64,000 bases of DNA from NCBI RefSeq assembly GCF_018771565.1, contig NZ_CP076326.1:3231785-3295784 (forward strand). Reading direction: 5' to 3'. Position 1 is the stretch's first letter. Each line of letters begins with the position of its first letter. Under the pieces are notes generated by a model. The model did no database searches. It worked only from the letters and a program-made list of their open reading frames with translations, and was not told the origin of the DNA. This document shows, piece after piece, positions 35,603 through 39,925 of the stretch. A program made the translations under genes and the position numbers. The DNA is from Thermoflexus hugenholtzii (GTDB lineage: Bacteria; Chloroflexota; Anaerolineae; Thermoflexales; Thermoflexaceae).

Positions 35603-35729
35603 CGAGATCCGGCGATCGGCCAGTCCTCCCCGGAACCCCGTAACCTTTTGCCGTCCACCGCCGACATGATGGGCGGATCACGGCGCGCCGCTCGATCCGC
35701 TCCGTTCAAACCGTCAGGGAGGTGCTTCC

Positions 35730-37646
35730 ATGCAAAAGATCTTTCGTTTGGGGATCCTCGGGCTTGGGCTGGCGCTCCTCGCGCTGACCGCCTGCACGAC
35801 CGCTCCCGCCGCCGGGGATGGGCAGACGATCCGCTGGCAGGGGACGGTGGAGGCGGTCCTCCCCGATGGCCTCCAGGTCTCCGGCCAACGGGTCCGCTGG
35901 ACCGGCGACACGCAGATCCTGGGGTCGGTGCAGGTGGGCTCGCAGGTGGAGATCGAGGGGACGCAGGCGGACGGAGCGCTGAGCGCGATGGTGATCCGGG
36001 TCCGCTCCTCCGCTGAGTCGACGGCGATGGGCCCCGGGGCCGCCGGGACCTTCGTCTCCCCGCTTCCCACGCCGATCCCGCGCATGGAGTTCCGAGGCGT
36101 GGTGGAGGAGATCCTTCCCAACGGCTACCGGGTCGCCGGCCAGACGGTGATCGTGACGACCACCACTCGAGTGGAAGGCGCGGTCGAGGTGGGCGTCTTC
36201 GTGAAGGTGAAGGGAATCCTGCAGGCCGACGGCTCCGTCCTCGCGCTTCAGATCGAGGTGGAGGCCCCGCCCGCCGAGGTGGAGTTCAAGGGCGTCGTGG
36301 AGGCGATCCTGCCGGACGGCTATCAGATCGCCGGGCGGACCGTCATCGTGACCGCCACCACACGGATCGATGGCCCCATCGCGGTGGGGACGTTCGTGGA
36401 GGTGAAGGGGACTCTCCAGCCCGATGGAACGATCCTGGCCTCGCGGATCCATCGGGAGGAGGAGGGACAACCCCGGGTTGAGTTCGAGGGGATGGTGGAG
36501 GAGATCCTTCCCAACGGCTACCGGGTCGCCGGCCAGACGGTGATCGTGACGACCACCACGCGCATCGAGGGTCCGATCGCCGTGGGGGATTTCGTCAAGG
36601 TCGAGGGGATCCCCCAGCCGGATGGGACGATCCTGGCGACCCGCATCCGCCTGCGGGAGGAAGTGAAGTTCACGGGCTTGGTGGAGGAAATCCTCCCGGA
36701 CGGCTATCGGGTCAGCGGCCGCACCGTCGTGGTGACGGACTTCACGAAGGTGAAGGGCCCCATCGCCGTCGGAGACTGGGTGGAGGTGAAGGGGTTCCTT
36801 CAGGCCGATGGCCGCATCCTGGCCCGCGAGATCAAGGTGAAGAAGGCTCCCGGGCCGGTTCGGATGGAGTTCAAGGGGGTGGTGGAAGAGGTCCTTCCCA
36901 ACGGCTACCGGATCGCCGGGATCACGGTGGTGGTGACTGCGACCACTCGTATCGATGGCCCGATCGCGGTGGGGGACCTGGTGGAGGTGAAGGGGGTCCT
37001 CCAGGCGGATGGCACGGTCCTGGCCTTCCGCATCCACGTGGAGAAGCCCGAGCGAAAGGGCGCTGAGATCGAGTTCAAGGGGGTGGTGGAGGAGGTCCTC
37101 CCGAACGGCTATCGGGTGAGCGGGCGCACGGTGGTGGTAACCGCGACCACCCGCATCGATGGCCCCATTGCGGTGGGGGACCTGGTGGAGGTGAAGGGGG
37201 TCCTCCAGGCGGACGGCACGATCCTGGCCTCGCGAATCCACGTGGAGGAGGCGGAGCGGAAGGGCGCTGAGATCGAGTTCAAGGGCGTGGTGGAGGAGGT
37301 CCTCCCGAACGGCTATCAGATCGCCGGGCAGACCGTCATCGTGACCGCGACCACCCGCATCGATGGCCCCATTGCGGTGGGAGACCTGGTGGAGGTGAAG
37401 GGGGTCCTCCAGGCGGACGGCACGATCCTGGCCTCGCGGATCCATCGGGAGGACCGCTCCGGGAAGGATTCCGGCAGCCTTCAGGCCGGACGTGACGAGG
37501 GGAAGAAGGGCGGTGATCCGTCCGGGAAGGACCGTAAAGGAAGCGGCGAGGAACGGAAGGGGGAGAAGTCCGGGAAGGGCGATAAGGGGAAAGGCGAGGA
37601 CAAGCAGGAGGATCGGTCCGGAAAGGACAAGGATGATGACGATTAA
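35730..37646 (+). CDS. Lipoprotein with eight DUF5666 repeats
   Basis: The protein has 638 residues. The signal peptide ends in LALTAC with a lipobox Cys at 22. Eight ~65-residue beta-rich units follow, each with the pattern [FW].G.VE.[IV]LP[DN]G....G, then VV.T..T.[IV].G, then V.V.G..Q.DG. Repeats 6-8 are nearly identical at DNA level. The tail is a Lys/Gly/Asp/Glu-rich low-complexity stretch ending in DDDD. DUF5666 units look like OB-fold-like beta domains of unknown role. It lies just upstream of an ECF sigma factor and a membrane protein with two more such units. Confidence 0.85.
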   Translation: MQKIFRLGILGLGLALLALTACTTAPAAGDGQTIRWQGTVEAVLPDGLQVSGQRVRWTGDTQILGSVQVGSQVEIEGTQADGALSAMVIRVRSSAESTAMGPGAAGTFVSPLPTPIPRMEFRGVVEEILPNGYRVAGQTVIVTTTTRVEGAVEVGVFVKVKGILQADGSVLALQIEVEAPPAEVEFKGVVEAILPDGYQIAGRTVIVTATTRIDGPIAVGTFVEVKGTLQPDGTILASRIHREEEGQPRVEFEGMVEEILPNGYRVAGQTVIVTTTTRIEGPIAVGDFVKVEGIPQPDGTILATRIRLREEVKFTGLVEEILPDGYRVSGRTVVVTDFTKVKGPIAVGDWVEVKGFLQADGRILAREIKVKKAPGPVRMEFKGVVEEVLPNGYRIAGITVVVTATTRIDGPIAVGDLVEVKGVLQADGTVLAFRIHVEKPERKGAEIEFKGVVEEVLPNGYRVSGRTVVVTATTRIDGPIAVGDLVEVKGVLQADGTILASRIHVEEAERKGAEIEFKGVVEEVLPNGYQIAGQTVIVTATTRIDGPIAVGDLVEVKGVLQADGTILASRIHREDRSGKDSGSLQAGRDEGKKGGDPSGKDRKGSGEERKGEKSGKGDKGKGEDKQEDRSGKDKDDDD

Positions 37647-37690
37647 GGATGGCGGCTCGCATCCGGAGGGCGATCCCAACAATGGGGTGA

Positions 37691-37726
37691 CACGATCCGG
37701 GGGACGCGCGGCCCTCCCGAATCGTG
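37691..37726 (+). terminator. Possible terminator after the DUF5666 lipoprotein gene
   Basis: Arms CACGATCCGGG (37691-37701) and CCCGAATCGTG (37716-37726) pair with one mismatch around a 14-base loop. No T-run follows, so this is weak. It lies 45 bases after the lipoprotein gene. Confidence 0.35.
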
Positions 37727-37877
37727 GGACCGGGAAGAGGGTGGGGCGGAGGACCGGCCGCGCACAATGGTCCTCTGCCCAGCCTTTTTCAGCCGGGGAC
37801 CCGATGGCATCCTTCCCCCAGAGCGGATACGATGGGGTCGATCGACGGTGGAAACTTTTCTTGAGCGATCCGGAACG

Positions 37878-38423
37878 GTGACGGACGAACAGGCTCTGCT
37901 GGCCCGCGCGCGGTCCCTGGATCCGGAGGCCCTGGCCGAGCTGCACGAGCGGTATTACCGAATGCTGTATTTCTACGTGCTCGGCCGGGTCGGGGAACGG
38001 ATGGCGGCGGAGGACCTCACCGCCGAGGTCTTCACGCGCCTCCTGGAGGCTTTCCATCGGGGGCGGGGGCCGGAGCGGCACCTGACGGCCTGGCTGTTTC
38101 GGACCGCGGATCACCTGGTGGCCGATCACCACCGCGCCCGCTACCGGCGCCCGGAGGTCGCGCTGGAGGAGGCGTGGGCAGCCGCGAGGGAGGAGGAGCG
38201 GAGCGATGTGGTGGTCCAGGAGCGGGTGCGAGAGGCTCTGGAGCACCTCACGCCCGATCAGCGGGCGGTGATCCTGATGCGGTTCTGGATGGATCTCCCC
38301 CTGGCGCAGATCGCCCGGGAGCTGGGGAAAAGCGTGGGGGCGGTGAAGTTGTTGCAGCATCGGGCCCTGGCCGCCCTCGCCAAACGATTACAGGACCTCA
38401 GGAGCGACCATGGCGCAGCGTGA
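37878..38423 (+). CDS. ECF-type RNA polymerase sigma factor
   Basis: This 181-residue protein has sigma region 2 (LHERYYRMLYFYVLGRVG, AEDLTAEVFTRLLEAF) and region 4 (LTPDQRAVILMRFWMDLPLA, IARELGKSVGAVKLLQHRAL). It lacks region 1.1 and region 3, as ECF factors do. The neighbouring gene, overlapping by 14 bases, encodes a single-TM protein that may be its regulator. Start is uncertain: GTG at 37878 gives the standard length, and a GTG at 37848 is an alternative. Confidence 0.88.
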   Translation: MTDEQALLARARSLDPEALAELHERYYRMLYFYVLGRVGERMAAEDLTAEVFTRLLEAFHRGRGPERHLTAWLFRTADHLVADHHRARYRRPEVALEEAWAAAREEERSDVVVQERVREALEHLTPDQRAVILMRFWMDLPLAQIARELGKSVGAVKLLQHRALAALAKRLQDLRSDHGAA

Positions 38424-39516
38424 GGAGGAGCTGGAAGAAGCCCTGCGGTTGCTCCGGGAAGGAGCTCCGCTCGAAGCGGTGGCGGCCCGCTATCCGGAGC
38501 TGGCTCCGGCCCTGCGCGCCGCCCATCTCCTGGAGCGGGCGCGCCCCCCGGGGCCGTCCCTGCGCGCGGAACTGGCCTCCCGGGCCGCCTTCCTCCGGCG
38601 CGCGGAGGAGCTTCGGGCCGCTCGCCGTCCCTGGGCCGGGATCCTGTTCGGATGGCTCCGGTATGCTCGGGCCGGCGCCGTCCTCGCGGGCATCCTGCTG
38701 ATCGCCGGGATGCTGCATCTCCTGGCCCAGCAGAGCCTTCCGGGGGATCCCCTCTACGGGTTGAAGCGGGCGGAGGAGCAGGTCTGGCTGGCGCTGACGC
38801 TGGACCCGGTGGAGCGGCGTCTGGTGGAGGAGACCCTGGCCGCCCGCCGCTGGGAGGAATACCGAGCCCTCGCGCAGCGCCGGGGCTCGGGGACGGTGAC
38901 CTGGGAGGGCCGGATTGAGGGGATCGAGGGGACCACCTGGCGCATCGGGGGGATCCCGGTGGAGGTCTTCCCCGAGACGGAGATCGTGGGGCCGGTGGCC
39001 CTGGACCAGCGGGCGATGGTGACCGCCTTTCTGGGGCCGGAAGGACGGTGGATCGCCCTGCGGATCCAGGCGATCCCGGAGACCCCAACGTGGACTCCGG
39101 AGCCCACCCGGACGCCGGAGGAGATCCAGGAGACCTCCACGCCCACATCAACCCCGACGCGGACCCGTCCGCCGACGCGGACCCCCGGGCCGACGGCGAC
39201 GCCGATCCCTGCGCCCGCTCCCACGGCCACCCCGTCGCCGACCGCGCCGGAGACGTCCACCCCCACGCCTCGGCCGACCGAGACGCCGCGGCCCACGCCG
39301 ACGCCGGAGGATCACGACAAGGGAGATACCGTGGAATGGAAGGGGATCCTCCAGGCGATCGCCGGATCCACCTGGGTGATCGACGGCCGCGCGGTGCAGG
39401 TCACGAGCGATACCCGGATCCGCGGCAGTCCCCGGGTTGGCGATCGCGTGGAGGTCAAGGCGCGGCGCCAGCCGGATGGAACGCTCGTCGCTCTGGAGAT
39501 CGAGCGAAAGGATTAG
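38410..39516 (+). CDS. Single-TM DUF5667/DUF5666 protein, likely anti-sigma or sensor
   Basis: The protein has 368 residues. The cytoplasmic N-terminus (~90 residues) is helical, with a segment like those of anti-sigma partners (EALRLLREGAPLEAVAARYP). One TM helix spans ~90-110, followed by SLPGDPLYGLKRAEEQVWLA, the DUF5667 hallmark. A DUF5666-like unit, a long Pro/Thr-rich linker (~95 residues) and a second DUF5666 unit follow outside. It overlaps the sigma factor by 14 bases, suggesting coupled translation. Anti-sigma function is inferred from context and topology. Confidence 0.75.
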   Translation: MAQREEELEEALRLLREGAPLEAVAARYPELAPALRAAHLLERARPPGPSLRAELASRAAFLRRAEELRAARRPWAGILFGWLRYARAGAVLAGILLIAGMLHLLAQQSLPGDPLYGLKRAEEQVWLALTLDPVERRLVEETLAARRWEEYRALAQRRGSGTVTWEGRIEGIEGTTWRIGGIPVEVFPETEIVGPVALDQRAMVTAFLGPEGRWIALRIQAIPETPTWTPEPTRTPEEIQETSTPTSTPTRTRPPTRTPGPTATPIPAPAPTATPSPTAPETSTPTPRPTETPRPTPTPEDHDKGDTVEWKGILQAIAGSTWVIDGRAVQVTSDTRIRGSPRVGDRVEVKARRQPDGTLVALEIERKD

Positions 39517-39559: not shown

Positions 39560-39925
39560 GTGGACTACCGGCCGTTCTGGGTGGGGTGGGGGCAGCTGGG
39601 CCTGTATTTGCTGGCGCTGGTGACGCTCTCTTTCTATGTCCGGCGGCGCATCGGTCATGCGACGTGGCGGCGGATCCATTACCTGAGCTTTGTGGTCTTC
39701 CTGATGGTCACAGTCCACGGGCTGATGAGCGGCACGGATACGGCCAGGGCCGGCGTTCGGGTCATGTATCAAACGGCGGGGTGGAGTGTGCTGGGGCTTG
39801 GGATTTATCGAGCCCTCGCGGTTTGGGTGTTCCCAGCCTTCCGGAAATGGACTTCCGCGCTCTTCGGGAAGGGTTCGGCGTTTTCGAATGAACGCTCCCG
39901 CCCGCTGCAGGGGCGATCGCCCTGA
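39560..39925 (+). CDS. Ferric reductase-like membrane protein
   Basis: This 121-residue protein has three hydrophobic helices. It contains WRRIHYLSFVVFLMVTVHGL, where the two His could hold heme as in ferric-reductase/MsrQ-like domains, then SGTDT and a third helix. I chose the GTG at 39560 because GGGAGC sits upstream and the hydrophobic domain begins just after. It is shorter than full ferric reductases and has no flavin domain. Confidence 0.65.
   Translation: MDYRPFWVGWGQLGLYLLALVTLSFYVRRRIGHATWRRIHYLSFVVFLMVTVHGLMSGTDTARAGVRVMYQTAGWSVLGLGIYRALAVWVFPAFRKWTSALFGKGSAFSNERSRPLQGRSP

Follow-up and report, generated by a model that had tools for sequence, protein, structure and literature searches.

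A likely autoregulated operon linking a sigma factor to DUF5666 domains of a lipoprotein and a membrane regulator in Thermoflexus hugenholtzii

Three adjacent plus-strand genes of Thermoflexus hugenholtzii (Chloroflexota; assembly GCF_018771565.1, contig NZ_CP076326.1) encode a lipoprotein, an extracytoplasmic function (ECF) sigma factor, and a one-pass membrane protein. We consider it rather likely, judging from sequence comparisons, that these genes form an autoregulated signaling operon, in which the membrane protein is the anti-sigma factor and the lipoprotein is the output. The stretch analyzed (the window) covers 64,000 nucleotides, positions 3,231,785–3,295,784 of the contig. An earlier note on this DNA had described the trio as an ECF sigma factor accompanied by an eight-repeat DUF5666 lipoprotein and a membrane protein that combines DUF5667 with two copies of DUF5666, and Pfam searches confirmed this composition, with eight and two DUF5666 domains, respectively, above the Pfam threshold. 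The features are as follows, numbered from the first nucleotide of the window.

35638–35670, plus strand: probable sigma-dependent promoter, CCGTAACCT-N15-CGACATGAT (exact block in all eight genomes with the locus)
35730–37646, plus strand: lipoprotein of 638 amino acids with eight DUF5666 domains (predicted oligonucleotide/oligosaccharide-binding [OB] fold) and a Lys/Asp/Glu-rich tail (Pfam; translation)
35835–35999, plus strand: DUF5666 repeat 1, the most diverged
36090–36257, plus strand: DUF5666 repeat 2
36285–36452, plus strand: DUF5666 repeat 3
36483–36650, plus strand: DUF5666 repeat 4
36669–36836, plus strand: DUF5666 repeat 5
36870–37037, plus strand: DUF5666 repeat 6
37074–37241, plus strand: DUF5666 repeat 7
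37278–37445, plus strand: DUF5666 repeat 8
37848–38423, plus strand: ECF sigma factor, BldN-like, with a probable GTG start at 37848 in a reading frame open from 37767 (Pfam, NCBIfam, PDB match, congener starts)
38410–39516, plus strand: probable anti-sigma factor of 368 amino acids, one-pass membrane protein (Pfam, model, synteny)
38734–38880, plus strand: DUF5667
38905–39069, plus strand: first DUF5666 domain of the anti-sigma factor
39340–39504, plus strand: second DUF5666 domain of the anti-sigma factor
39560–39925, plus strand: C-terminal remnant of a ferric-reductase-like membrane protein (residues 136–240 of 257 match)

In terms of regulation, the earlier note had proposed that the sigma factor controls the locus and that sigma-dependent promoters be sought upstream of position 35730. 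That search identified the conserved candidate block at 35638–35670, and this BldN-like promoter makes control by the sigma factor the most likely reading. For comparison, the present genome (G000, a single contig of 3.32 Mb) was set beside eight genomes of the same genus (G001–G008); L numbers denote the individual loci and stretches compared. The block was gapless and invariant before the lipoprotein gene in all eight Thermoflexus genomes that carry the locus, this one included (in G008 it lies inside an over-extended open reading frame [ORF]). Its flanks diverge on both sides, except within the close trio G000, G004, and G006. The ninth genome, G007 (76% complete), yielded no lipoprotein match and only a distant anti-sigma paralogue. 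The putative −35 element is CGTAAC (35639–35644) and the putative −10 element CGACAT (35662–35667), separated by 17 bases when the −10 is read in this way. A passage of PMC2375139 gives the BldN promoter motif as CGTAACN16CGTTGA; the −35 element of the block is identical to that of BldN, and its −10 element may be read as CCGACA at N16 or as CGACAT at N17, compared with CGTTGA. Forms nearer to the BldN motif occur in other Chloroflexota.

The exact 18-base pattern occurred once per genome in the eight genomes with the locus, always at this locus. When up to three mismatches were allowed, 29 sites were found in these genomes, eight of them the exact sites at the locus and the other 21 distributed over seven genomes; the backward control gave five. 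The best additional site (one mismatch here; two in G002, G003, and G005) falls inside an apparent dihydroorotate dehydrogenase gene (by eye; G000 and G005), and one three-mismatch site (L187) is also within open frames. A looser 11-base form matched exactly in eight of the nine genus genomes, with one extra site each in G000 and G001, and its backward control gave none in seven genomes, three in G004, and one in G007. Within the window, four sites lay within two mismatches, one of them exact, which is fewer than in shuffled sequences (mean 6.1).

The 218-amino-acid ORF between the lipoprotein and the membrane protein contains sigma-70 regions 2 and 4 (Pfam). It is over-extended in the ORF list; in five of seven congeners the start falls at the position of GTG 37848, and the ORF is longer in G001. 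Its best NCBIfam model was TIGR02952, the BldN family (138.7 bits), and its best PDB match was 6dxo_A (E = 1.8e-20; next best, 4.6e-11). We take 6dxo to be the BldN–RsbN complex; the search output names only an ECF-subfamily sigma factor. The ratio of nonsynonymous to synonymous substitution rates (dN/dS) was 0.07 for the sigma factor and 0.33 for the anti-sigma factor. The overlap between the two genes amounts to 14 bases here and in four of the five Thermoflexus records compared; in the fifth it is four bases. Together with the lipoprotein gene, they probably constitute one operon.

The membrane protein is composed of a cytosolic helical N-terminus, one transmembrane helix, DUF5667 (PF18915; 32.0 bits, cut-off 27), a DUF5666 domain, a Pro/Thr linker, and a second DUF5666 domain (two stretches, E = 1.3e-23). 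In the predicted structure, a helix at residues 75–107 contains the transmembrane segment. Related loci were collected by a profile scan of genome contigs, and the best 80 of 139 relatives were retained, ranked by similarity to this anti-sigma factor, so that the fractions with DUF5666 among them are not unbiased. Some records are duplicates (L085–L089 correspond to G006, G005, G003, G002, and G001, and several further loci repeat G-genome records). An ECF sigma gene lay directly upstream of the DUF5667 protein gene in 77 of the 80 loci (Thermoflexus: 5/5; other Chloroflexota: 48/49; Actinobacteria: 23/24; others: 1/2); of the three exceptions, L153 has only a distant sigma gene, and L158 and L162 start near a contig end. 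At one Lentzea locus, the sigma factor matched 6dxo_A at 7.5e-46 and the next gene carries DUF5667, which was also found in one Amycolatopsis and one Geodermatophilus member. The link between DUF5667 and bldN-like actinobacterial loci is based on these three members. When the Chloroflexota and actinobacterial profiles were compared with hhalign, they aligned with a probability of 99.3% (E = 2e-20), mainly over the membrane segment and DUF5667. Because of its position behind an ECF sigma gene and its DUF5667 domain, the protein encoded at 38410–39516 is most likely an RsbN-like anti-sigma factor. DUF5667 is common in the phylum, occurring in 171 of 301 Chloroflexota genomes drawn.

This genome has two further ECF sigma/DUF5667 pairs, at L166:3412–4790 (569 kb) and L167:4038–5569 (2488 kb), neither with a DUF5666 match; the latter adjoins a gene that reads as mutL. 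In Chloroflexus islandicus (L092:3926–8146), two anti-sigma-like genes with DUF5666-like domains lie approximately 2 kb apart, with the single detected sigma gene between them.

Sites of the BldN type were also sought near the sigma genes of other families. The motif CGTAAC-N16-CGTT was scanned from 150 bases before to 120 bases after the sigma ORF start in 48 non-Thermoflexus Chloroflexota loci. With at most one mismatch, it was found at seven loci (shuffled mean 0.25, maximum 2; reverse strand 0), and with at most two mismatches at 23 loci (shuffled mean 3.46, maximum 8; reverse strand 2). A spacer of 16 was the best of those from 12 to 21, the others giving 1–11 loci within two mismatches. 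The conserved BldN-like block, together with these sites near Chloroflexota sigma starts, suggests that the sigma factor probably acts on its own operon; in Thermoflexus, the site precedes the lipoprotein gene. A promoter family of the form CGTA(A/T)(C/T)-N16-CGT(C/T), often with T-runs behind the −35 element, recurs near Chloroflexota sigma starts.

Several observations weigh against a self-regulated system of the BldN–RsbN type. The −10 box is unlike that of BldN, and taking CGACAT as the −10 element makes the spacer 17 bases long instead of 16. No CGTAAC-N16-CGTT site within two mismatches was found in 25 of the 48 Chloroflexota loci. In the 23 actinobacterial loci, the scan was not clean: no locus had a site within one mismatch (shuffled mean 0.12; reverse strand 0), eight had one within two mismatches (shuffled mean 1.85, maximum 5; reverse strand 5), and a spacer of 21 gave nine; the scan therefore fails as a positive control there. 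Neither of the other sigma/DUF5667 pairs in this genome showed the box [CT]GTA[AT][CT] from 200 bases before to 60 bases after the sigma ORF start. The sigma factor scored below the TIGR02952 cut-off (138.7 versus 206.45 bits), and the sigma gene of G006 (L085:2163–3098, equivalent to L050) matches two ORFs in different frames, which reflects a frameshift or a sequence error. The cytosolic parts alone of the Chloroflexota and actinobacterial proteins gave no convincing hhalign alignment (probability 1.2%), and neither cytosolic-part profile retrieved an RsbN chain from the PDB.

Other PDB searches with the anti-sigma factor were similarly unproductive. Its predicted model matched 22 chains, the best with Z = 4.0 at a root-mean-square deviation of 10.1 Å and no RsbN chain among them; its sequence gave a low-complexity Pro/Thr match and one chance match; and the Lentzea DUF5667 protein matched nothing up to E = 1. 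A class I anti-sigma fold may apply here instead of the class III cytosolic fold of BldN–RsbN type pairs, which binds sigma regions 4 and 2. A passage of PMC7406223 assigns class I to 72% of Chloroflexi ECFs.

The lipoprotein has a signal peptide that ends in a lipobox-like LTAC (Cys22, from the translation), followed by eight DUF5666 stretches (PF18914; E = 4.7e-103, over the gathering cut-off). At the DNA level, a 204-nucleotide unit is repeated seven times at spacings of 186–204; repeat 1, which has diverged further, was picked up only by shorter repeat families. Repeats 2–8 share 60–91% amino acid identity in pairwise comparisons, and repeat 1 is 43–47% identical to them. The earlier note's description of repeats 6–8 as nearly identical is a little strong, given 91% identity at the amino acid level and 85–90% at the nucleotide level. 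Other Pfam matches of the lipoprotein (Cry1Ac_D5, KOW6, DUF1737, MS_channel_2nd, and others) were rejected as repeat artefacts; some of these secondary matches score over their cut-offs, and no stretch passes alone. Searching the PDB with the lipoprotein sequence gave chance matches only.

The number of repeats differs among the eight Thermoflexus genomes, from eight in this genome, G005, and G008 to seven in G002 and G003, six in G001 and G006, and three in G004; the G002 linker holds the apparent start of an eighth repeat. The comparison with G006, nearly identical at the locus, is eight versus six. Repeats 1–5 of G006 are 98–99% identical to those of this genome, and its sixth repeat is a mosaic, in which the first half and more matches repeat 6 here and the last quarter and beyond matches repeat 8. 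This structure fits either unequal recombination between repeats 6 and 8 or assembly collapse. The G006 contig is a low-coverage short-read assembly (coverage 3.8) and may hold errors, since its sigma gene is split between two frames. Of the recent expansion that had been proposed for the repeats, a fast change in repeat number is supported; this change may have been a gain here or a loss in the relative whose last repeat is mosaic. The three-repeat lipoprotein of G004 has a His/Asp-rich tail (L043:5972–6142), which is possibly metal-binding, unlike the Lys/Asp/Glu-rich tail here.

A structural model of lipoprotein repeats 7–8, built from 56 two-domain sequences, predicted that each domain is all-beta, with a mean predicted local distance difference test score (pLDDT) of 89.2 and a predicted template modeling score (pTM) of 0.50. 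The domains are thus predicted confidently, but their mutual placement is not. Among the Foldseek matches listed, OB folds largely predominated; cold-shock and S1 domains headed the list, CusF entered at rank 5, and no match was under E = 0.001. Columns conserved at a level of at least 80% in both domains contained Gly, Val, Ile, Thr, Ala, and Asp, and one repeat position was Trp or Tyr in about 90% of cases. DUF5666 is accordingly a predicted OB fold. We know of no described function for DUF5666. In the literature searched, DUF5666 was named in four papers, never in the title or abstract, and DUF5667 in none.

CusF, the periplasmic Cu/Ag chaperone, is also a small OB barrel, and it leads the VIA-align ranking of the model (Z = 10.0 over 66 residues at 2.6 Å for 3e6z; Z = 9.9 over 61 residues at 1.3 Å for 2vb2), so that the repeats could be read as CusF-like metal-binding domains in a system that senses copper or silver. 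However, an aspartyl-tRNA synthetase domain was almost tied with CusF (Z = 9.6), PriB and further OB folds came next, with rank 50 still at Z = 8.4, and Foldseek placed cold-shock and S1 domains first. The CusF metal site consists of His/Met/Met/Trp, whereas His, Met, or Cys did not exceed a fifth of the 56 two-domain sequences in any repeat column; a CusF-type metal site is unlikely for this reason, and we regard copper or silver sensing as very improbable. It is quite possible that DUF5666 is a generic OB building block, that the ligands of the lipoprotein and the anti-sigma factor are unrelated, and that the promoter is the sole link between them. The anti-sigma copies are only 21–48% identical to the lipoprotein repeats; further DUF5666 domains are encoded elsewhere in this genome, well away from these loci; and at L118, an anti-sigma factor with only a marginal DUF5666 (E = 4.6e-5) stands beside a companion with three DUF5666 domains. 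The two sets are nevertheless related, as they belong to the same Pfam family, and the distribution of companions argues for a connection. A separate DUF5666 gene, upstream or downstream, adjoins the sigma/anti-sigma pair in eight of the 48 non-Thermoflexus Chloroflexota loci. At a stricter threshold, companions were found at seven of 24 loci with a DUF5666-bearing anti-sigma factor, compared with one of the remaining 24 (one-sided p = 0.02); at a looser threshold, which adds the marginal domain of L118, the counts were eight of 25 and none of 23 (p = 0.003). The looser eight comprise seven from the automated count and L102, which that count had excluded because its companion and the anti-sigma gene share four bases; a DUF5666 gene 1.7 kb upstream at L117 falls outside the distance rule. 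These p values are indicative only, because the loci share descent, contig ends truncate 10 of the 48 anti-sigma genes, and this locus itself supplied the profile. The association supports a functional tie between the two DUF5666 sets, short of proof of a shared ligand.

Two other explanations concern the genes and the DNA around the trio. Behind the anti-sigma gene of G001 and G008 lie, in tandem and in the same direction, genes encoding PepSY, a small Pro-rich protein, ApbE, and a membrane protein resembling ferric reductases (full set in L045 and L046); in G002, the PepSY, small-protein, and ApbE genes are on the locus contig, and the reductase match is on another. ApbE occurs in three of the nine genus genomes, each time only at this locus. 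If the operon were an extracytoplasmic redox module, the lipoprotein would be an electron carrier or flavin-bearing, and the co-occurrence of ApbE and a ferric-reductase-like protein in three genomes of the genus, arranged in tandem behind the anti-sigma gene in two, recalls the MsrQ-like flavinylation clusters (Meheust et al. 2021, PMC8238504). The congener PepSY domain is PF03413, however, rather than the PF03929 or PF16357 of PMC8238504, and no flavin mononucleotide-binding domain was found in the proteins scanned. The congener ApbE match is clear, and the PF01794 scores of the reductases (27.2 and 20.2 bits) are under the cut-off of 28. The present genome has no ApbE match and lacks the PepSY, small-protein, and ApbE genes and the N-terminal half of the reductase gene at the locus, and yet keeps the repeats and the promoter. 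The reductase remnant, which starts 43 bases behind the anti-sigma stop codon and has a nearly identical counterpart in G004, has a dN/dS of 0.43 between these two genomes, with eight synonymous and 10 nonsynonymous changes, too few to separate decay from weak constraint. ApbE is likewise without a match in G003, G005, and G006; the G003 contig bearing the end of the anti-sigma gene has an unrelated gene beside it, and in G005 and G006 the contig stops at or within the anti-sigma gene. At E = 1e-5, the four redox proteins had no match in the stretch examined at any of the 75 non-Thermoflexus loci. Because the core is kept here without the redox genes and no match to them was found in those stretches, the core unit appears independent of them, and we judge the redox reading distinctly unlikely. 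It is also doubtful, although a little less so, that the upstream block is an operator, an RNA element, or the promoter of another gene, with the sigma factor acting elsewhere. Here a divergent gene, read as rpsB, uses the same upstream region; in G005, however, other genes lie upstream and the block is retained. In spacing and −35 element it agrees with BldN, and motifs of this family also occur close to the sigma starts of other families.

The favored reading, an autoregulated operon, would operate as follows. At rest, the membrane-bound DUF5667 protein would hold the ECF sigma factor at the membrane, as RsbN does with BldN, and its two extracellular OB-fold DUF5666 domains may read the state of the envelope or the surface. 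Once released, the sigma factor would direct RNA polymerase to the CGTAAC-N17-CGACAT promoter, raising the levels of the lipoprotein, the sigma factor, and the inhibitor. The lipoprotein would be the main output; anchored by its lipid and built as a string of OB domains ending in a strongly charged tail, it probably coats the surface or binds at it. Since it shares the domain type of the sensor, it may also occupy the ligand of the sensor, or the sensor itself, and thereby turn the response off; this is the weakest step of the scheme. A more elaborate version, in which the OB domains of both proteins bind the same surface polymer or each other, and the amount of lipoprotein and its repeat number set the threshold at which the sigma factor is switched off, would amount to a surface ruler or density feedback. 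We think this version unlikely; if it were true, changes in repeat number between strains would tune the response.

The known system closest in kind is BldN–RsbN of Streptomyces, whose regulon, according to a reference title in PMC4255298, comprises the chaplins and rodlins. Both have adjacent genes for a sigma factor and a one-pass membrane anti-sigma factor, a BldN-like sigma factor, a CGTAAC −35 element, and a surface protein as the output, here the proposed one, and the present locus looks like a relative, in another phylum, of this system for the control of surface-sheath proteins. Apart from the phylum, the differences are the CGACAT −10 element in place of CGTTGA, a sigma factor under the BldN-family cut-off, extracellular DUF5666 domains on the anti-sigma factor, and a probable target that is a tandem OB-fold lipoprotein of the same operon. 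The new elements would be the OB domains common to the anti-sigma factor and the operon-encoded lipoprotein, and the form of the promoter in Chloroflexota; the ECF classification may already hold an entry for such a group, and a passage of the review PMC8999054 describes further ECF groups whose neighboring genes resemble the anti-sigma genes of group ECF121. These results suggest testable roles: DUF5667 would form the extracytoplasmic neck of an anti-sigma factor of the RsbN kind, and DUF5666 would be an OB-fold surface domain. They also suggest that promoter logic of the BldN kind, familiar from the development of Streptomyces, governs autoregulated operons in Chloroflexota as well.

The DUF5666 occurrence elsewhere in this genome (L165:4407–6102; 2322.4–2324.1 kb) consists of two neighboring minus-strand ORFs with DUF5666-like domains, with no sigma match in the 10-kb stretch. 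The locus itself is present in four records named Thermoflexus or Candidatus Thermoflexus, at 70–98% identity. Its minus-strand neighbors in the window were read by eye from their translations as pyrH, frr, tsf, and rpsB.

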